Shown here piece after piece: positions 14,673 to 37,520 of a stretch of DNA of 64,000 nt. The DNA comes from Paenibacillus rhizosphaerae. GTDB lineage: Bacteria; Bacillota; Bacilli; Paenibacillales; Paenibacillaceae. Numbering within the stretch: position 1 is the first letter of the stretch; each line of letters starts with the position of its first letter. The notes below the pieces were generated by a model. That model was not told the DNA's origin. It saw only the letters and a list, made by a program, of their open reading frames with translations, and did no database searches. A program made the position numbers and the translations under genes. The stretch covers positions 1,178,001 to 1,242,000 of the forward strand of contig NZ_JACHXJ010000002.1 of the NCBI RefSeq assembly GCF_014192015.1, read 5' to 3'.

Positions 14673-15635
14673 TTACGGAAGGTACAAGCCCATTCTTTCC
14701 TGGATCACCTCCAAGACTTCTCTTGGCATCTCCCTGACCTTGACATCTCCCCCCAGGAACAACAGCCAATTGGTTAATTCGGTTATTTCTTCGGATTTAT
14801 CAACATGAATATAGGTCCTTAATATAGCTGTCGTTTGGTAAGGATTCGTATAGGAAAGGGACACTTTGATAGGATGGTATTTCCTGAACTGCGCAATTGC
14901 TTTTGGCCCCAGTTCTAGCACCAGGTTGATGACCTCATCTTGCTTACGCAGCTGTTCCTGGATCTTTTTTTTACTTATTCTTTTTTTCAAAGGGTATGGC
15001 TCTACATTGGTCAGATCATCAACAGGAATAATCCTCCTCTTTTCTGCCTTCAAATCAAATCCTTCGATCAGCCACACGCTTTTCTCCCGATAGAGGTGCA
15101 GGAGATAAATGGGACAGGATTTGTTTTCCTTCCCTTCTTGGAAGCTGACCAATAAATAGCTGTTCATGAGAAGGATTTGGATGAGCTTTTCCAGCATCGG
15201 ATGGGGGAGGTCCGACAGGTCGAGCAGGTCGGGGTTGTTGGGGTTGGTCCCTTCAAACAGTAAGATTTGATTCAAAAGGACAAGGTCATCCTGCTGGTTT
15301 GTCGAAATCAGACCAAGCAATTTTTCGGCCAGCGACTGGCGGCTCTTCAAATAAGGGAGTTGCTGATTTCTGGTGGCCATGAAGGCGATGAACAAGGCTT
15401 TAATTTCGGTATCGGTAAAGCGGACCGTGGGCAGGATCGAGTTGTTCATGACGAAATACCCTCCGTCCCTGCCTACTTCAGCAACAAGCGGCATCCCCAT
15501 GGCTTCAATTTCCCGGATATCCCGGATCGCCGTCGATCGGGAGATGTTAAATTCCTGCATGATTTCAGAAATGGTAAAGTGGGCGCGGTTGTTGATGTAC
15601 CGCATGATGATATTAATCCGTTCAACTTTTTTCAT
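14673..15635 (-). CDS. YafY-like HTH/WYL-domain transcriptional regulator
   Basis: 320 aa, RBS AGGAGA. An N-terminal HTH_11 segment (FTISEIMQEFNISRSTAIRDIREIEAMG region) is followed by a WYL ligand-binding domain containing YREKSVWLIEGFDLKAEKRR and a C-terminal extension. Proteins of this architecture usually control the divergent neighbour, here the GyrI-like protein at 15747, in response to small ligands. Confidence 0.9.
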   Translation of the reverse strand: MKKVERINIIMRYINNRAHFTISEIMQEFNISRSTAIRDIREIEAMGMPLVAEVGRDGGYFVMNNSILPTVRFTDTEIKALFIAFMATRNQQLPYLKSRQSLAEKLLGLISTNQQDDLVLLNQILLFEGTNPNNPDLLDLSDLPHPMLEKLIQILLMNSYLLVSFQEGKENKSCPIYLLHLYREKSVWLIEGFDLKAEKRRIIPVDDLTNVEPYPLKKRISKKKIQEQLRKQDEVINLVLELGPKAIAQFRKYHPIKVSLSYTNPYQTTAILRTYIHVDKSEEITELTNWLLFLGGDVKVREMPREVLEVIQERMGLYLP

Positions 15636-15746
15636 CGGAGTCTCCTAAACAGTATCACTTTTTGACATGATTTAAAGTTATTATAAACCCATCAAGTGAA
15701 AACACAAATCATTTGAACAAATTTTAAAAAAGGAAGGTAATCCAAT

Positions 15747-30515: not shown

Positions 30516-30569
30516 TTTACAACTTGTTTACAACTTGGAGATAGGTTCGTGTGCCATTTCATCTATCAT
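30516..30569 (+). promoter_or_regulatory. tandem response-regulator boxes and -10 of the first two-component operon
   Basis: TTTACAACTTG occurs twice head-to-tail (30516-30526 and 30527-30537), one helical turn apart, with TATCAT (30564-30569) starting 27 bases after the second copy. No -35 hexamer is present, as in activator-dependent OmpR-type promoters. Confidence 0.75.
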
Positions 30570-30605
30570 CAAGGAGGAAGGAAATCATATCTGAGAGGTA
30601 TTGAA

Positions 30606-31265
30606 ATGGAAAAAATAATCATCATTGAAGATGACCCGGCGATTTCCGATCTGATCAAACTGAATCTTGAATTGGCAGGATACGATTGCCGGCAGGCTTA
30701 CAGCGGTCAAGAAGCGCAATGCATTCTCACAGATTTTTCGCCCGATTTGGTGCTGCTGGATATCTCTCTACCCGACATGGAGGGGTACGAGCTATTGGAC
30801 CGCTTCAAGAACAGCGAAGTGCCGGTGATTTTCCTGACGGCCCGAAGCGCCCTTATCGATAAGGTAAAAGGATTGAAGATGGGGGCCGATGACTATATCG
30901 TCAAGCCTTTTGAAGCAATGGAGCTGCTGGCCAGAATCGAAGCGGTGCTTCGCCGTTACGGCAGGAAAAGCGATCGCATGGATTTCGGGGGGCTCGAGAT
31001 TGATCTGGAGGAACGCACGGTCAAGCGAGATGGCTTCATCGTCGATCTTACGTTGAAAGAATACGAGCTGCTCCTGCTTCTCATCCACAACCGAAACAAA
31101 GCCCTGTCCAGGGAAAAAATTCTTGAACATGTCTGGGACTACGAGTATATCGGCGAGACGAGAACCGTCGATATTCATATCCAAAAAATACGCAAAAAGC
31201 TGGGGTGGGAAGACCGGATTAAGACCGTCTATAAATTCGGTTACCGGCTCGAGGTTCTCTCATGA
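30606..31265 (+). CDS. OmpR-family response regulator
   Basis: 219 aa from the ATG (MEKIIIIEDD) seven bases after GAGAGG; the open frame continues upstream without support. Receiver domain with acidic pair D9-D10, phosphoacceptor D52 in LLDISLPDM and Lys in IVKPFE, then a winged-helix C-terminal domain ending YKFGYRLEVLS. It should bind the TTTACAACTTG repeats in front of its own gene and before 32805. Overlaps the kinase gene by 4 bp (ATGA). Confidence 0.93.
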   Translation: MEKIIIIEDDPAISDLIKLNLELAGYDCRQAYSGQEAQCILTDFSPDLVLLDISLPDMEGYELLDRFKNSEVPVIFLTARSALIDKVKGLKMGADDYIVKPFEAMELLARIEAVLRRYGRKSDRMDFGGLEIDLEERTVKRDGFIVDLTLKEYELLLLLIHNRNKALSREKILEHVWDYEYIGETRTVDIHIQKIRKKLGWEDRIKTVYKFGYRLEVLS

Positions 31266-32701
31266 AGCTGTGGCTGAAAGTGTTCTGGTGCACCTTCCTT
31301 CTCTTTGAAGTGCTGTTTAATGCAGCTTCCTTTTACCTGATCCAGCATAATTTCAATCACAATCAGGTAAGGGAAGTCGATAGAGGTTTATCGGAGCAGC
31401 ATATAATAACCGCTCAAATCGAAACAGACTGGTCGTATATCAACAATTTGAACCAGCTGCTGAATACCACAAAAGAAGGTGTAGACGAGTTTTTGCAGCA
31501 TAACGCATCCAAGTACCTGAAATCCTTTGATCCGGGCAATGCATCTATTGAAATTAAGAACAATCGGAATCAAACGGTATTCACCAATTTATCCGAAACG
31601 GTTGCCGGCCCGAGACCTGAGCTTGAAGTAGAAGAGCCCGGGGACAGAAAATATATCATTCGCAGCTTCGGCCATAAGAGCGTTTTGTTTGTCGCCGGCG
31701 TGCTCACTCTGAGCGGGAGCGATTTTAAGCTCACATACAGCCTGGATTTGACCGGCATTTATGAGGATAAGAACGCGCAGATCCGAAATTTTATCAGAAT
31801 CAATATTGTCATTACCGTCGTCCTGGCTGCCGGCCTGTACGGATTGATTTGGTTTCTCACACGCTCCATCCGCATGCTCACCAGATCCGCACAGACGATA
31901 GCTTCGGGCCGGTATACGCATCGCGTTAACGTGATCTCGAGGGACGAGATTGGCCTGCTTGCGGAGCAGTTCAACAAAATGGCAGAGGCGATCGAGGAAA
32001 AAGTCAATGCGTTGGAGACGACCGACAGGAACAAGCAGCGGTTTATTCATTACTTGACGCATGAGTTAAAGACGCCGCTTACTTCCATTATCGGATACGC
32101 CGACTTGCTCAGAACGGCGACATTTAATGAAGAAGTGTTCTACAAGTCCCTCCATTATATATACAGCGAAGGAAAACGGCTGGAGAGCCTCGCTTTTAAA
32201 CTCATGGACCTCATTCTGTTCGAAAATAACGAACCCCGGATGACCGTCTGGGAGATGGAAACGGTACTTGAAGAGTCCGTGCAAACGATGAGACCGCAGC
32301 TGGAAAAGGCGCAGGTGGGTTTGTCCATGACCGTAGAAGCCATAAGACTGCCGATGGAAAAAGATTTGATCCAAATTCTATGCACCAATCTGATCGACAA
32401 TTCCATTAAAGCTTCGAATGCCGGAGACCGCATCCGTATCCGCGGGTACAAGACAAACGACCACCAATATGTCATCGAAGTGCAGGACGAAGGTATCGGG
32501 ATACCCGAACAGGATATCCCGAACGTGTTTGAGCCGTTTTTCAAGGTGGATCAAGCTCGCTCGCAGACGAACCGCGGCGCCGGATTGGGACTTGCTATTT
32601 GTGCCGAAATCGTCAGGCTGCATAAGGGTGAGCTCGACATTCAAAACCGCTTGAACGAAGGAACCGTCGTTCGGATCATCCTTCCCGGATCATACAACTA
32701 A
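31262..32701 (+). CDS. sensor histidine kinase with extracytoplasmic domain
   Basis: 479 aa. Membrane helices at about 6-26 and 178-200 enclose a sensor of about 150 residues outside the cell, followed by HAMP (about 200-252), HisKA with the phosphorylated His267 in LTHELKTPLTS, and an HATPase domain (LIDNSIKAS, DEGIGIPE, GAGLGLAI). The sensor has no family I can name. Partner of the regulator at 30606. Its last codons overlap the first copy of the regulator box that serves 32805. Confidence 0.93.
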   Translation: MKLWLKVFWCTFLLFEVLFNAASFYLIQHNFNHNQVREVDRGLSEQHIITAQIETDWSYINNLNQLLNTTKEGVDEFLQHNASKYLKSFDPGNASIEIKNNRNQTVFTNLSETVAGPRPELEVEEPGDRKYIIRSFGHKSVLFVAGVLTLSGSDFKLTYSLDLTGIYEDKNAQIRNFIRINIVITVVLAAGLYGLIWFLTRSIRMLTRSAQTIASGRYTHRVNVISRDEIGLLAEQFNKMAEAIEEKVNALETTDRNKQRFIHYLTHELKTPLTSIIGYADLLRTATFNEEVFYKSLHYIYSEGKRLESLAFKLMDLILFENNEPRMTVWEMETVLEESVQTMRPQLEKAQVGLSMTVEAIRLPMEKDLIQILCTNLIDNSIKASNAGDRIRIRGYKTNDHQYVIEVQDEGIGIPEQDIPNVFEPFFKVDQARSQTNRGAGLGLAICAEIVRLHKGELDIQNRLNEGTVVRIILPGSYN

Positions 32702-32744
32702 TTTACAACTTGCCGATAGTTATGAAATAAGGCGCTTTTATAAT
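32691..32744 (+). promoter_or_regulatory. response-regulator boxes and -10 before the secreted protein gene
   Basis: TTTACAACTTG (32702-32712) is identical to the boxes at 30516, and a degenerate copy sharing TACAACT lies exactly 11 bp upstream inside the kinase stop region. TATAAT (32739-32744) starts 27 bases after the box, the same geometry as at 30537/30564. Confidence 0.75.
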
Positions 32745-32804
32745 GAAAGTGCAAGTTGGAAATGCGCATCCCAACTGCAAATCTCAAATCCGGAGGCATA
32801 GAAC

Positions 32805-33617
32805 ATGAAACTTTTCGAAGCAGTCACAAGCAAAAAAATAACCGGTACCGTCCTGGCGTCGGCGCTCGTCATCGCCAGCTTCGGCACCATGACCGCATTT
32901 GCGGCAAAGGGAAGCGACGCCATTCCGAAAAATACGGTCATGACGGCGCCTGCACTGACTGACACGTCGGTTACATCATCGGACAAAGCCCAGGGAACGA
33001 TTGAATACGGTAAGACCACTTATTCGAGAACCGACGGCAGTCAGAACGTTACAATGGAACATTGGTATAATCCGCAAACGAAGGATTTCAGATCGGATGT
33101 AAGGGATTATTCAGCCGATCATCAGCTGCTGAGCTATAAAAGCACTTACTTTCTCAACGGCAACAACGTCATGGTCGTGATTCAGCGGGACCCAAACGGC
33201 GATCCCGTCAGCGGGAAAATGCTCAAGAGATCCGATGATCCAAAGCCTTTCGAACCGTCGGACAAAAAAAATCTCGGTTTTAGCGGCGTAAAGAACAATT
33301 ATAAAGCCAGCTATTGGACATCCGTCGGAACCGAGCAAACGCCCGGCGGGAAAACTCTGAATAAGCTTATGAGAGACAGCTATCAGTCCTATATTGACGA
33401 CAACACGCTGGCCAATATGCAGTACATTGTGTATGTAGATCAGAAATCCGGCTTTCCGGTCAAGGAAGAGCTTTATGAGGATTCCACCGGAACATTCAAG
33501 CTCTTCAGCAGCGATACAGAAGAATATCAATACGTATCGGATGACGGATCCATCTTCAATACAAGCGGGGTAACGCTTACCCCGGTCAAAACTTCCGCCG
33601 AAGTTGCAGCAAAATAA
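32805..33617 (+). CDS. secreted protein, target of the first two-component system
   Basis: 270 aa, RBS CGGAGG. A Sec signal peptide (KK then a hydrophobic run, cleavage near AFA-AKG at about residue 34) precedes a soluble domain rich in strands, with YVDQKSGFPVKEELYEDS near the end. That pattern recalls LolA-like folds but is not proof. No cysteines and no sortase signal, so it is probably released or loosely wall-bound. Its promoter carries the same tandem boxes as the regulator gene. Function unknown. Confidence 0.82.
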   Translation: MKLFEAVTSKKITGTVLASALVIASFGTMTAFAAKGSDAIPKNTVMTAPALTDTSVTSSDKAQGTIEYGKTTYSRTDGSQNVTMEHWYNPQTKDFRSDVRDYSADHQLLSYKSTYFLNGNNVMVVIQRDPNGDPVSGKMLKRSDDPKPFEPSDKKNLGFSGVKNNYKASYWTSVGTEQTPGGKTLNKLMRDSYQSYIDDNTLANMQYIVYVDQKSGFPVKEELYEDSTGTFKLFSSDTEEYQYVSDDGSIFNTSGVTLTPVKTSAEVAAK

Positions 33618-33654
33618 TCGGCTTACGGATTAGGCGCAAATTCTGTGTGACACT

Positions 33655-33686
33655 AAACAGCCCTCACCTAAAGGTGGGGGCTGTTT
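33655..33686 (+). terminator. long-stem terminator
   Basis: AAACAGCCCTCACC pairs with GGTGGGGGCTGTTT (one G-U pair) around a TAAA loop. The T tail is short (TTT). Confidence 0.75.
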
Positions 33687-33769
33687 ACGTGCTCTGGGAG
33701 GTGCTTAGTCCGGCGGATCAATGTACGTACAATTAGTTAAATGAAATCACGTGTTTGTTCGATCTGCCT

Positions 33770-33845
33770 GTAAGACTTTCTTAATCTTTTGTTAAGGGAA
33801 TCGCAAGGGGTTCGTTCTTGTATGGTTAGCATTATCCATTAAGAT
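33770..33845 (+). promoter_or_regulatory. possible OmpR-type repeats and promoter of the Met-rich lipoprotein
   Basis: Three elements spaced 11 bp apart, beginning GTAAG (33770), TTAAT (33781) and TTAAG (33792), with CTTT/TTTT centres, resemble PhoB/PhoP-type tandem sites. A promoter TTGTAT (33818-33823), 16-base spacer, TAAGAT (33840-33845) follows. They may be bound by the regulator encoded at 34306. Confidence 0.45.
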
Positions 33846-33888
33846 GATTGCATGCGGCGGAATATAAAACAAATCAGGAGGTAACAGG

Positions 33889-34185
33889 ATGAAGAAATTA
33901 TTTTGGTCCATAATGCTCATTGGAAGCGTCCTCTCTTTAAGTGCCTGCAGTTCTGGGGATAAGGATATGGGTAATCAGATGACGAGTGAAGGCAACCATG
34001 TTCAAAACGAAATGGGCGGAACCGACACAAAGGATATGATGGGCAGCCAGGATATGAAAGAAGAAAACATGAACAGTGAAGACACAAACATGATGGAACC
34101 ATCGCAAAAAGGGATGGGCACGGATCATAGTGACATGCCGGAGAAAGATGCGACGACAAACGGCATGGGCAAAGGCGGCATGTAG
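33889..34185 (+). CDS. methionine-rich lipoprotein
   Basis: 98 aa, RBS AGGAGG. Signal peptide with lipobox LSAC (lipidated Cys20). The mature part of 79 residues has 13 methionines and many Asp, Asn, Gly and Lys, with no further cysteine; motifs such as DMMGSQDM and TNMMEP recur. It is predicted to be disordered at the outer face of the membrane. Met-rich periplasmic peptides bind Cu/Ag or act as sacrificial oxidant sinks. Followed by a two-component system and a molybdo-oxidoreductase, which favours the oxidant idea. Confidence 0.82.
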   Translation: MKKLFWSIMLIGSVLSLSACSSGDKDMGNQMTSEGNHVQNEMGGTDTKDMMGSQDMKEENMNSEDTNMMEPSQKGMGTDHSDMPEKDATTNGMGKGGM

Positions 34186-34305
34186 AAAACCTATGAAAAA
34201 GTCGAAACGGGCGCAAGCGCAGGATAACCTTGTGCCTGTCCAAACGGCTGCGAATCACTTATAATCGAGCACAAATAAGGATGCAGCTTAATTGGAGGAA
34301 CCGAC

Positions 34306-35040
34306 ATGAGCGTGAACATTGTAGTAGCGGATGATGAACGTAATATTACCGATGTGTGTCAGCGGTATTTGGAGCGCGAGGGCTGGACCGTTTGGGTAGC
34401 GGAGGACGGCGAGGAGGCTATCAGGCTGTGGGAGGAACATCGTCCGGATTTGCTGGTGCTTGATCTGATGATGCCCAAGCTTGGCGGACTAGACATCTGC
34501 GACCGGGTACGTCAAACCGATGAAACCCCGATCATCATGCTCACGGCACGGGGTGAAGAGGCCGACCGGCTGCTGGGTCTTACGATGGGTGCCGATGACT
34601 ATATGACGAAACCGTTTAGTCCCAGAGAGCTGGTACTTCGTGTCAAAAATATTTTAAGAAGGGCGGGTATACACTCGGGAACCGCCACAAAGGGAATGCA
34701 ATCAAACAACGGCAACGGGCCTGATTTGACGATCGAGTTTGAAGGGCTTGCGATTTTCCCGCAAGAAAGACGGGTGACCGTCTGGGGGGAAGAAGTAGAG
34801 CTGACCGCCAAGGAATTCGATCTCCTTCATTTACTTGCCGAATACCCCGGCAAAGTGTTCTCACGAAGCCAGGTCCTTAGTCAACTATGGGATGTTGCTT
34901 ATGATGGGGACACGACTACCGTGACGGTTCATATTCGCCGTCTTCGGGAAAAGATTGAAGCAAACCCCTCTGACCCTGTATGGATCAAGACAGTATGGGG
35001 AATTGGATATAAGCTGGAAGGCAAGGGATCGGACCGATGA
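34306..35040 (+). CDS. OmpR-family response regulator
   Basis: 244 aa, RBS GGAGG. Receiver with D9-D10, phosphoacceptor D53 in VLDLMMPKLGG and K in MTKPFS; a longer than usual linker (residues about 120-140, Asn/Gly-rich) leads to a winged helix with VTVHIRRLREKIE and WGIGYKLEG. Overlaps the kinase gene by 4 bp. Possible targets are the lipoprotein gene upstream and the oxidoreductase downstream. Confidence 0.93.
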   Translation: MSVNIVVADDERNITDVCQRYLEREGWTVWVAEDGEEAIRLWEEHRPDLLVLDLMMPKLGGLDICDRVRQTDETPIIMLTARGEEADRLLGLTMGADDYMTKPFSPRELVLRVKNILRRAGIHSGTATKGMQSNNGNGPDLTIEFEGLAIFPQERRVTVWGEEVELTAKEFDLLHLLAEYPGKVFSRSQVLSQLWDVAYDGDTTTVTVHIRRLREKIEANPSDPVWIKTVWGIGYKLEGKGSDR

Positions 35041-36107
35041 AGCTGCGCACCTGGTTATGGCTTGCGAATGCAATCAGCATCGCCTGCATAATTTTTTTAC
35101 TGACGGCGTTCTACCGTTACATGCTGCTGAGTATGGAGCAGTTTCTGTGGCTGACGGCGGCTACGATCGGAGCCGGAGCCGCATCCGCACTGCTGCATTT
35201 CGTACTGGTCCGCCCCCTGGAAGCTTCGGTAAAGCGGCTCGGCGAAGGTGCGGGGAGGATTGCCGCCGGCGACCTGAAGGCCCGGGTTCCCCAAACGGGA
35301 TTGAAGGAATTTAAGCAACTTGCAGAGCAGTTTAATCATATGGGAAGCAGTCTTGAGGAGAGCTTCCGCCAGATAAGGGCGGCCGAATCAGCGCAGCGGG
35401 AGCTTGTGGCGAACATGGCGCATGATTTAAGAACCCCGCTCGCCTCCGTCCAGTCTTATGCGGAGGCACTGGAGGATGGCGTTATCCAAGACGAGGAGAC
35501 CTTCCGCAACTACCTTTCCACCATTCGCTCGGAGACCGTAAGGCTTGGGGAGTTGATCCAGGATATATTTGAATTGTCAACGCTTGACGCGGGGAGGCGC
35601 GGAACGGGTGCAGAGCGGTTGTCGATTGCCGAGGACGTCCTCGTGGAGCTTCTGGTGAGATTCACCATGCCGATGGAAGCGAAATCGCTTCAGCTTAAGG
35701 TGAAGCTCCCCGAGCAGCCGCTCCGTATTCGGATCGCACCGCAGCATCTAGAACGAATATTGCAGAACCTGCTTGAAAATGCCGTCAGGCACTCCCCCCG
35801 TCACGGTCTGATTATGATTGAAGCCGAGCAAACAGGGGAACTAGACGGATACATGGTCAAGTTTACCGTGTCGGATGAGGGTGAAGGAATTGCGGATGAA
35901 GAGAAGGAACGGGTTTTTGACCGGTTCTATCGTTCGGACCGCTCACGAAGCAGGGAAGGTGGAGGAGCGGGACTCGGCTTGTCGATTGCCAAACGCATGG
36001 TTGAGCAGTACGGAGGTCAAATCGGCGTTAGAGATAACGGGCTTCAGGGAAGCGCGTTCTGGTTTACCGTGTGTCCGGATTCTGATCGATTAACGGCATG
36101 TGAATGA
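35037..36107 (+). CDS. short-loop sensor histidine kinase
   Basis: 356 aa. Two membrane helices (about 6-24 and 36-58) are joined by only some ten extracellular residues, so the protein has no periplasmic-type sensor domain. It resembles intramembrane-sensing kinases that read the state of the membrane or of a partner protein. HAMP follows, then HisKA with His129 in MAHDLRTPLAS, and HATPase motifs (LLENAVRHS, DEGEGIAD, GGAGLGLSI). Translationally coupled to the regulator and 30 bp ahead of the oxidoreductase. Confidence 0.92.
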   Translation: MKLRTWLWLANAISIACIIFLLTAFYRYMLLSMEQFLWLTAATIGAGAASALLHFVLVRPLEASVKRLGEGAGRIAAGDLKARVPQTGLKEFKQLAEQFNHMGSSLEESFRQIRAAESAQRELVANMAHDLRTPLASVQSYAEALEDGVIQDEETFRNYLSTIRSETVRLGELIQDIFELSTLDAGRRGTGAERLSIAEDVLVELLVRFTMPMEAKSLQLKVKLPEQPLRIRIAPQHLERILQNLLENAVRHSPRHGLIMIEAEQTGELDGYMVKFTVSDEGEGIADEEKERVFDRFYRSDRSRSREGGGAGLGLSIAKRMVEQYGGQIGVRDNGLQGSAFWFTVCPDSDRLTACE

Positions 36108-36137
36108 AACCCGCGATGCGGAAAGGCGGAAGCAAGC

Positions 36138-37376
36138 ATGAGAGGAATAATGGAGCGTATTCGCCGTGATTACGGCAAGAAGCTAGTCTCGCTTCATGCC
36201 TGGAACGGCTGGATCGTCGCCATCTTAGCGCTGACAGGACTTGTTCTTATCAGCGGATTCTGGCGAGGATTCCTGGGCGAAGGCAGAGTTTGGATCAAAT
36301 GGGGCCATGTTACTGTCGGTATCCTGTCGATCCTGCCGGTCATTTATTATCTGTTCCTGGCGGGGAAGCACTGGAAGAAGCTGAAGAAGAGACCTTGGCA
36401 GCGGTTTAACGTGCTGGTCGTCCTAGGACTGCTCTTGGGCTGGTTTGCTTCAGGCATCCTATTGTGGCAGTTCCGGATGGCCGGGCCAAGAGCAACGAAC
36501 ATGGCGCTGGTCCTGCATGACGTATTGACCTGGATAGGTCTTCCATACATCATTTATCATTCGGTAACAAGATTGAAGTGGCTCAAGGCAGCTGAACGTC
36601 GAAGCATAGTTAAACGCACAGACATTGAAAAGAAGGTGGAAGGCGTATCCCAGCCGCCATTTTATACACGGAGGGCATTTATTCGCGGAGCAATCGGAGC
36701 CGGGCTGGCGGTAACCCTGGGCCCGTCTTTTATGAAATGGCTGGTTTACTCGCTCGGCAGCGCGGGTGGGAGTAACTCCATCGACCAGCTAATCAAGGAC
36801 AACGCCAACTCACTGATGCCTGACCCCATTCCGCTGCCAGCGTCCATGCCGCCTGCTGGAGGCGGGGCGCAAGGCCATTTTCGAGTCTACACGGTTGCGC
36901 CGATTCCGATGTTTACGAATAAGAACTGGTCTTTTACGATCAACGGGCTTGTCGAGAAAAGCATGAAATGGGATTGGGAACAGTTCGTCAATTTAAAGCG
37001 GTCCGTGCAGGTCAGCGATTTTCACTGCGTCACAGGGTGGTCGGTCTATAAGAACACCTGGGAGGGAATCCCGCTCGCACAACTGCTTCAATTAGCCGGA
37101 GTTAAACCAGGGGCAAAAAACGTCAAATTCTACTCAGGTGACGGTGTCTACACGGACACGCTGACACTGGAGCAAGCGTCTATGGATGACGTTATGGTCG
37201 CTGTTATGCATGACGGCAAGCCGATTCCTAGCGACCTGGGCGGGCCCGTACGCCTGATCGTCCCCAGGATGTATGCCTACAAATCCGTCAAATGGCTGAA
37301 CAGAATCGAGCTGATATCAGAAAATCATATCGGCTATTGGGAAGAGCGCGGATATTCGAATGACGCCTGGGTATAG
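36138..37376 (+). CDS. cytochrome b membrane domain fused to a molybdopterin oxidoreductase (MsrQ/MsrP-like fusion)
   Basis: 412 aa, RBS AAGGCGG. Residues about 15-150 hold four membrane helices with candidate haem-ligand histidines H20, H57, H127 and H141. A twin-arginine-like motif TRRAFIR (177-183) precedes another hydrophobic stretch. From about 245 on comes a sulfite-oxidase-fold molybdopterin domain (PF00174 type) with the Mo-ligating Cys297 in SDFHCVTGWS. In proteobacteria the equivalent parts are separate proteins, MsrP and MsrQ, which repair methionine sulfoxide in periplasmic proteins. Catalysis on methionine sulfoxide is inferred, not shown. Confidence 0.85.
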   Translation: MRGIMERIRRDYGKKLVSLHAWNGWIVAILALTGLVLISGFWRGFLGEGRVWIKWGHVTVGILSILPVIYYLFLAGKHWKKLKKRPWQRFNVLVVLGLLLGWFASGILLWQFRMAGPRATNMALVLHDVLTWIGLPYIIYHSVTRLKWLKAAERRSIVKRTDIEKKVEGVSQPPFYTRRAFIRGAIGAGLAVTLGPSFMKWLVYSLGSAGGSNSIDQLIKDNANSLMPDPIPLPASMPPAGGGAQGHFRVYTVAPIPMFTNKNWSFTINGLVEKSMKWDWEQFVNLKRSVQVSDFHCVTGWSVYKNTWEGIPLAQLLQLAGVKPGAKNVKFYSGDGVYTDTLTLEQASMDDVMVAVMHDGKPIPSDLGGPVRLIVPRMYAYKSVKWLNRIELISENHIGYWEERGYSNDAWV

Positions 37377-37491
37377 ATGAATAATTTACACGCTTAGAAG
37401 CCGTTTTGGAGAGATTGTCTGCTTGGGAAACACCAAAAGAACTCGCTTATCCCACAGATGCAGATGATGTGGTAGAGCAGGTATAAAAGTC

Positions 37492-37520
37492 AAAGCCACT
37501 CCTAACCTAGGAGTGGCTTT
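37492..37520 (+). terminator. terminator after the oxidoreductase operon
   Basis: AAAGCCACTCCTA (37492-37504), loop ACC, TAGGAGTGGCTTT (37508-37520). The flanking gap 37377-37598 holds no other recognisable element. Confidence 0.85.

Follow-up and report, generated by a model that had tools for sequence, protein, structure and literature searches.

The stretch of DNA analyzed here (the window, 64,000 nucleotides of contig NZ_JACHXJ010000002.1 from the 7.55-Mb genome of Paenibacillus rhizosphaerae) contains four plus-strand genes, lying between an inverted repeat and a terminator-like hairpin, that encode a Met-rich lipoprotein, a response regulator, a sensor histidine kinase and a membrane enzyme in which a cytochrome b part is fused to a molybdopterin domain. 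Judging from the sequence, positions 33770-37520 look like one unit, and this unit is probably an operon for the defence of the cell envelope against methionine oxidation. The arguments are its gene content, conservation, the exchange of the enzyme for the methionine sulfoxide reductase (Msr) MsrAB in related loci, invariant residues and a repeat array. The earlier note on this DNA had proposed a sink, sensor and repair system of this kind for positions 33770-37376. Comparative evidence supports this proposal in the main: the genes occur together across Paenibacillaceae, and in a sister group the sensor and the Met-rich protein are found with MsrAB, a thioredoxin-like protein and CcdA. It does not support the MsrQ-like membrane part or the implied novelty of the fusion. 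The start of the span coincides with the start of the repeat array and was kept; the end was moved to the hairpin.

The named relatives are mostly Paenibacillus. In the genus sample, the enzyme or a relative was found in 94 of 100 genomes and the kinase (E ≤ 1e-60) in 19 of 100. In the family sample, a kinase match at E ≤ 1e-70 was present in 93 of 394 genomes, exactly one in each (five candidates were scored per genome); these 93 and L149, from a genome outside the sample, make up the 94 distinct family kinase loci. A gene was called Met-rich if it was an exported-looking open reading frame (ORF) on the kinase strand with at least 9% Met and at least five Met in the mature part. Such a gene was detected at 86 of the 94 loci. 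The fusion enzyme accompanies the kinase at 48 loci (42 with and 6 without a Met-rich gene). MsrAB is present at 33 loci (31 with and 2 without), and all 13 loci having neither repair enzyme have a Met-rich gene. Both repair modules were never found together within 5 kb, on either strand, at any of 104 loci. Seventeen duplicate loci, whose kinase DNA is identical to that of another locus, were removed, and L248 was left out for its length of just 3.5 kb; L244 starts at the kinase, so that nothing upstream of it is readable. The lipobox LNAC of L075 and L086 was missed by the detector, and both are counted as "sec".

According to a stricter detection (at least 12% Met and at least six Met), a Met-rich gene occurs at 87 of 104 kinase loci, whereas the 42 control loci, with 1.03 Mb of strand in total, have none, which indicates that its association with the kinase is no chance neighbourhood. 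The control loci lack the kinase, had been collected on account of the enzyme or its paralog, and are not a random genome sample; they were searched on both strands over the whole locus, and the kinase loci on the kinase strand only, from -3.5 to +5 kb. The standard detector gave three weak Met-rich ORFs in the control loci. In the class sample, kinase matches (E ≤ 1e-60) were found in 21 of 398 genomes, 11 of them from other families. Ten other-family loci were read: five with the enzyme and a Met-rich gene, three with the enzyme alone (one cut by a contig end), one with MsrAB alone and one with nothing. The enzyme at E ≤ 1e-40 was found in 6 of 348 genomes of the phylum sample, all in the family of the window.

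The MsrAB loci of the family have a kinase 44-49% identical to that of the window, a thioredoxin-like gene in 33 of 33 cases and CcdA in 32 of 33; therefore the sensor and the Met-rich protein seemingly belong with methionine sulfoxide repair. MsrAB was detected by similarity, and its domains were tested on L148 and L152 only. Domain analysis of L148 revealed DsbD_TM (4.8e-22), Redoxin (1.9e-18) and an MsrA-MsrB lipoprotein (PMSR 3.2e-62, SelR 2.1e-47). MsrA and MsrB domains were absent from the window operon in the Pfam search. The upstream Met-rich gene of this sister cassette encodes a protein that has a stalk domain (PF07833) and runs of the kind MMDDDK; the genes of the regulator, kinase, CcdA, thioredoxin-like lipoprotein and MsrAB lipoprotein follow (L145, L146, L148, L150-L152 and others). 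By its predicted gene content, the sister cassette is an Msr operon of Gram-positives that would act outside the cytoplasm and includes a Met-rich partner. Both types of Met-rich protein, the lipoprotein and the stalk-domain one, were found with the fusion enzyme, the latter in L138 (PF07833, 1.4e-10).

A third arrangement was observed in L245-L247, from other families of the Bacilli, in which the molybdopterin protein and the cytochrome b561, the latter with four transmembrane (TM) helices, are not fused and are encoded separately beside the regulator and kinase (in L246, PF00174 8.4e-44 and PF01292, Ni_hydr_CYTB, 9.7e-22). A twin-Arg signal is visible on the molybdopterin protein of L246 and L247; a Met-rich lipoprotein was found in L245 and L246 and none in L247. 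The order in L242 and L243 is enzyme gene, kinase gene and Met-rich gene, the first two being adjacent. In a quick kinase tree made with no bootstrap, one clade holds the 48 family enzyme loci (Shimodaira-Hasegawa-like approximate likelihood ratio test 99) and another holds 32 of 34 MsrAB loci (100), both module types recur on outer branches, and at least nine label changes are needed. Since different repair enzymes are arranged around one sensor and a Met-rich protein, methionine oxidation is their likely common theme, and the apparent exchange of repair modules is the strongest evidence for it.

The window lipoprotein has the lipobox LSAC and a mature part of 79 residues (the Cys counted) with 13 Met, as had been read earlier, and 2 His. 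It showed no Pfam match at E ≤ 0.1, and its NCBIfam matches were all far below their cut-offs. The pentapeptide MXKDX repeat family TIGR02953 (cut-off 41 bits) did not match it at E ≤ 0.1; among four relatives, L065 and L035 scored 39.5 and 37.9 bits, and L069 and L033 gave no match at E ≤ 0.001. The pooled lipoproteins contain 19.3% Met and 0.17% His over 3450 residues, with W, Y, F and C absent behind the anchor Cys. Such a protein may serve as an oxidant sink and/or as a redox bait.

The regulator (Response_reg 1.6e-30, Trans_reg_C 7.1e-30) is of the OmpR type, as predicted, and the start of the kinase gene (35037) overlaps the end of the regulator gene (35040). The kinase has HAMP, HisKA and HATPase_c domains and two hydrophobic helices separated by an outer loop of approximately 10 residues as read from the sequence, so that the description of a kinase almost devoid of an extracellular loop holds. 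In the alignment of 104 kinases, Met29 (codon 35121-35123) is present in 103 of the 103 rows with a letter at this position, and among residues 1-62 only Ser50 is equally constant (104/104). From the usual topology, Met29 would be located at the outer end of the first helix, near the outer face. The second loop Met, Met33, is not conserved. Within the same genome, the kinase most similar to that of the window has 32% identity to it, and the alignment begins only at residue 34, indicating that the N-terminal part is special to the kinase group of the window.

Upstream of the lipoprotein gene, units GTAAG, TTAAT, TTAAG, GCAAG, GTTCT and GTTAG follow each other with an 11-bp period. This array is likely to contain the binding sites of the response regulator. 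At least three units were found upstream of 80 of 91 Met-rich genes and in 3 of 1820 Markov shuffles; the repeat expression was derived from the very upstream sequences counted and the shuffles are Markov chains from those sequences, thus the counts are descriptive. By class, the Met-rich gene is preceded by at least three units at all 31 MsrAB loci, at 41 of the 47 loci with the enzyme and at 8 of the 13 others. Upstream of the regulator, kinase, enzyme or CcdA genes of the same loci there are at most two units, except for one regulator gene with three. The putative -10 element TAAGAT or a similar string stands at the matching place in several relatives; a generic sigma-70 scan did not list the string of the window. 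A search of the genome with a three-unit pattern returned three sites, versus one for the reversed pattern; of the two other sites, one is behind a two-component system before an ATP-binding cassette (ABC) transporter gene and one is between glycosyltransferase-like genes, according to ORF reading. Because of these numbers and contexts, only the array of the window is claimed as a site.

The fusion enzyme has four long helices, a twin-Arg motif, a fifth helix and a molybdopterin domain (Oxidored_molyb, PF00174, 9.6e-39, residues 255-401), which agrees with the membrane cytochrome b fused to a molybdopterin domain described earlier. The alignment comprised the window enzyme and 47 others that are 51-77% identical to it. 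PF00174 was found in 48/48 members, and His 20, 57, 78, 127 and 141, Arg178 and Cys297 (codon 37026-37028) are invariant in all of them. Arg179, the second residue of the twin Arg before the fifth helix, is kept in at least 90%; four TatC matches were found in the same genome. According to the hhalign analysis, the molybdopterin part is similar to E. coli MsrP (E 1.3e-12, 33% identity over 140 columns), and Cys297 in the motif CVTGWS aligns with the Cys of CVEAWS in MsrP. This Cys is presumably the molybdenum ligand. The AlphaFold2 model has a mean predicted local distance difference test score of 77.8 and a predicted template modelling score of 0.57. The fold search with it gave 46 PDB matches at E ≤ 0.001, by name to the molybdopterin part (Z 18.5-19.7 for the first five rows).

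As for the membrane part, its hhalign probability with E. coli MsrQ was 1.1%. When each of the 48 members was scanned at E ≤ 0.1, Ni_hydr_CYTB (cytochrome b561) was found in 43 and Ferric_reduct in 3; the window enzyme itself had no Ni_hydr_CYTB match at this threshold. Structures matching the membrane part, such as the superoxide oxidase 5oc0 (Z 12.2) and FdnI (Z 11.1), have Z of 9-12, values that helical bundles can reach by chance. The membrane part therefore resembles the cytochrome b561 type, rather than MsrQ as assumed in the earlier note. Two more relatives are encoded in the same genome: a 64% identical paralog that adjoins a penicillin-binding-protein gene and has no sensor match, and a short relative with 35% identity.

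For the oxidant, the sensing step (with Met29 or the Met-rich protein as the redox element), regulator binding, the enzyme substrate and the electron source, we infer the following course of events. Hypochlorous acid (HOCl) or peroxide would oxidize the methionines of the lipid-anchored Met-rich protein, which would act as a sink. Devoid of a sensor domain, the kinase would read envelope methionine oxidation at or near Met29, either directly or through the Met-rich protein, and the phosphorylated regulator would bind the 11-bp repeat array and turn the operon on. In the fusion enzyme, the b561-type heme part would pass electrons of the quinol pool on to the extracytoplasmic molybdenum site, at which methionine sulfoxide would be reduced, so that the sink would be recycled and other surface proteins repaired.

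Several observations weigh against this defence operon. The enzyme scored 75.8 bits with the MsrP model NF003767, versus a curated cut-off of 207. The same genome has six other MsrA-domain genes, among them L267 with an apparent N-terminal membrane anchor. An adjacent regulator and kinase were found at only 17 of 42 named enzyme loci (L001-L032, with short flanks, were left out of this count), and a kinase match anywhere in the genome was found in just 4 of the 25 genomes with an enzyme and no adjacent kinase, at 45-48% identity. At least three repeat units precede 2 of 39 enzymes lacking the kinase (L087 and L224 hold one identical gene among these). Between L036 and L038, identity is 94% in the 3 kb upstream and 93% from the kinase end onward, but L038 is devoid of the lipoprotein, regulator and kinase genes and retains, before the enzyme, 37 bp of the sequence that precedes the regulator. 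The same pattern of loss is seen between L073, which has the sensor genes with no Met-rich gene found beside them, and L047, with a 40-bp remnant. This remnant of 37-40 bp may be the promoter now driving the enzyme. No kinase match occurs elsewhere in the genomes of L038 and L047, and the retention of the enzyme in them indicates that it is useful alone and has a wider use than recycling the lipoprotein.

This loss also bears on a different division of labour, in which the Met-rich protein is mainly a signal that is read by the kinase and reset by the repair enzyme, with general protection coming from the enzyme. In L038 and L047, the Met-rich gene is missing together with the sensor where the enzyme was kept; conversely, it stays with the sensor at all 13 family loci lacking a repair enzyme within 5 kb, loci that themselves count against a repair operon. 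The invariant Met29 fits here as well. However, the length of the lipoproteins and their Met number (6-30) vary widely among relatives, which is more consistent with a bulk scavenger than with a specific ligand, and the absence of a detected Met-rich gene at the six enzyme loci and two MsrAB loci, unfavourable to the defence operon too, leaves eight family loci with a sensor and no such signal. We regard this division of labour as possible, though clearly the less probable one. A broader form of the idea is offered equally tentatively: a class of sensors whose kinase, with almost no outer loop and a single invariant Met at its outer face, would read the oxidation state of a low-complexity exported Met-rich protein acting as a renewable redox fuse, and evolution would have plugged different repair enzymes (the molybdenum fusion, the unfused molybdenum pair, or MsrAB with thioredoxin and CcdA) into one sensor-fuse core.

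The best PDB matches by sequence and fold include sulfite dehydrogenases (2blf at 9.2e-14, next to 1xdy at 9.7e-14; sulfite dehydrogenase and E. coli YedY/MsrP structures), and 17 of 62 loci have a rhodanese gene (PF00581, 1.3e-39) close to the enzyme. Both points detract from methionine repair and would suit an oxidoreductase for sulfite, or another small S- or N-oxide, in an operon for sulfur metabolism or respiration. Enzymes of the sulfite oxidase/dehydrogenase family typically have a C-terminal Mo-co dimerisation domain; this domain was not among the Pfam matches of the window enzyme or the 48 members, and the window enzyme, of 412 residues, stops right after its molybdopterin domain. In addition, the motif CVTGWS resembles that of MsrP, the rhodanese gene is present both with and without the sensor, and in sulfite chemistry neither the Met-rich protein nor the replacement of the enzyme by MsrAB would have a role, thus we consider it improbable. 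A response to copper or silver, the main alternative in the earlier note, is less probable still and was rejected as the principal explanation. Clusters of Met are able to bind Cu(I) and Ag(I), and the lipoprotein could do so; but the mature lipoproteins are nearly devoid of His and have no Cys behind the anchor, MsrAB occurs in the sister group, and no P-type ATPase, HMA-like or multicopper-oxidase-like genes were found within 5 kb of the 104 kinase loci by a scan with simple motifs only.

Features of the probable envelope methionine-oxidation defence operon and its flanks (positions in the window)
Feature	Position	Strand	Basis and remarks
Inverted repeat	33654..33687	+	Repeat search; arms of 16 nt, 94% complementary, 2-nt gap; 3' of the upstream gene
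Array of six 11-bp direct-repeat units	33770..33835	+	Units read from the sequence
TAAGAT, putative -10 element	33840..33845	+	Directly 3' of the array
Met-rich lipoprotein, 98 aa	33889..34185	+	Lipobox and composition
OmpR/PhoB-type response regulator	34306..35040	+	Pfam; adjoins the kinase in relatives
Sensor histidine kinase, two TM helices	35037..36107	+	Pfam; alignment of 104 kinases
Membrane fusion enzyme, cytochrome b561-type part with four TM helices and molybdopterin domain	36138..37376	+	Pfam, alignment, AlphaFold2
Terminator-like hairpin, 13 pairs	37492..37520	+	Terminator scan, both strands; 3' of the enzyme gene

The inverted repeat possibly marks the end of the upstream transcription unit; no T run follows it, and the terminator scan did not list it. 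A second two-component system (RR1/HK1) and a secreted protein gene are located directly upstream (30549-33617). They were excluded from the unit: the secreted protein has no match in the named loci, and the RR1/HK1 matches are just 22-42% identical, by which they are apparently cross-hits to other two-component genes. Another Met-rich ORF was flagged elsewhere in the window (15373-15648).

Some features of other loci were also observed. A sensor pair with a Met-rich stalk-type protein and no repair enzyme within 5 kb was found in L147, L149, L153, L186, L192, L193, L202, L204, L206, L214, L216, L219 and L222. The rhodanese gene lies 3' of the fusion enzyme in L033, L035, L038, L041, L045, L046, L049, L051, L073 and others; an alpha/beta-hydrolase gene is often found with it (11 of 62 loci), with or without sensor genes. 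In another enzyme lineage (L078-L085, L071), a gene of a LysR-type regulator is directly upstream (domains confirmed in one representative), with an apparent adenylosuccinate synthetase gene beyond it. In one genome, a fusion enzyme of the paralogous kind contains one in-frame TGA (G093:C1:5665590-5666834).

The closest described layout is that of uropathogenic E. coli (UPEC), in which the two-component system OrhK/OrhR controls the MsrQP-like C3566/C3567 beside the Met-rich peptide C3568 and is reported to respond to hydrogen peroxide (H2O2) and protect against peroxide (PMC8550376). Like the window, it combines a two-component system with an adjoining MsrPQ-type enzyme and a Met-rich exported product; as described there, it is Gram-negative and has a free periplasmic peptide and separate enzyme subunits, unlike the lipid-anchored protein and fused b561-type enzyme of the window. 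No report of a Gram-positive system with a sensor, Met-rich protein and fused enzyme was found in an open-access literature library, and the earlier note knew of none. In Brucella BcrXQP, a Met-rich MXKDX protein accompanies MsrQP, is induced by HOCl and gives HOCl resistance, according to PMC8315932, and Azospira MrpX-YedYZ is described as a similar combination of a Met-rich protein and an MsrPQ-type enzyme. The Brucella system is described as having sigma/anti-sigma control of the extracytoplasmic function (ECF) type and separate MsrQ and MsrP (PMC8315932), unlike the window. E. coli HprS is reported to control msrPQ and to detect HOCl by means of two methionines in the periplasm (PMC10151825); a kinase would likewise drive a molybdenum methionine sulfoxide reductase in the window. 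By sequence, the periplasmic part of HprS is longer than that of the window kinase, and no Met-rich protein is annotated at the HprSR-MsrPQ locus of E. coli K-12.

The sister cassette has the same enzymes beside a two-component system as the described loci of Streptococcus gordonii (PMC7034828) and of Fusobacterium nucleatum, ModRS (PMC9239216), in which CcdA, a thioredoxin-like protein and MsrAB are found; the term "methionine-rich" is absent from both texts. The likeness of the sister cassette to these loci is one of gene content; the window has the molybdenum fusion in place of the MsrAB set. Induction by HOCl or H2O2 is reported among the analogues (PMC8315932, PMC8550376, PMC9239216). In Bacillus cereus, Met of exoproteins, recycled by cytoplasmic MsrAB, was proposed as an antioxidant (PMC5526929).

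As for the enzyme, the architecture of the fusion was already known from Sco3746, as described in PMC5449189: five TM helices, conserved TM histidines, a twin Arg before the fifth helix and a C-terminal molybdopterin domain, in heme-molybdopterin proteins integrated by Sec and Tat. Its authors mention Firmicutes homologs, report the family from actinobacteria, firmicutes, chloroflexi and euryarchaeota, and point to distant homologs made as separate polypeptides, E. coli MsrP/MsrQ among them; their account of Sco3746, in the passages concerned, gives no enzyme function, sensor or Met-rich partner (PMC5449189). The likeness is one of architecture as described, and the plasmid matches (15 of 18 listed, mostly Streptomyces) cover 40-45% of the query, its molybdopterin part. 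What is new is the Gram-positive form with its lipid-anchored Met-rich protein and b561-type fused enzyme, the observation that MsrAB takes the place of this enzyme in relatives, and the likely function that an orphan family of enzymes thereby gains. The neighbourhood evidence indicates that Sco3746-type fused enzymes may repair oxidized methionine outside the cell; if the sensor-fuse core exists as outlined above, they would be quinol-driven protein-methionine sulfoxide reductases. The combination of one sensor and a Met-rich partner with unrelated repair enzymes makes methionine oxidation the likely common signal, and the system, with one kinase methionine, one repeat array and one low-complexity protein, is small enough for the direct study of how protein oxidation is sensed.

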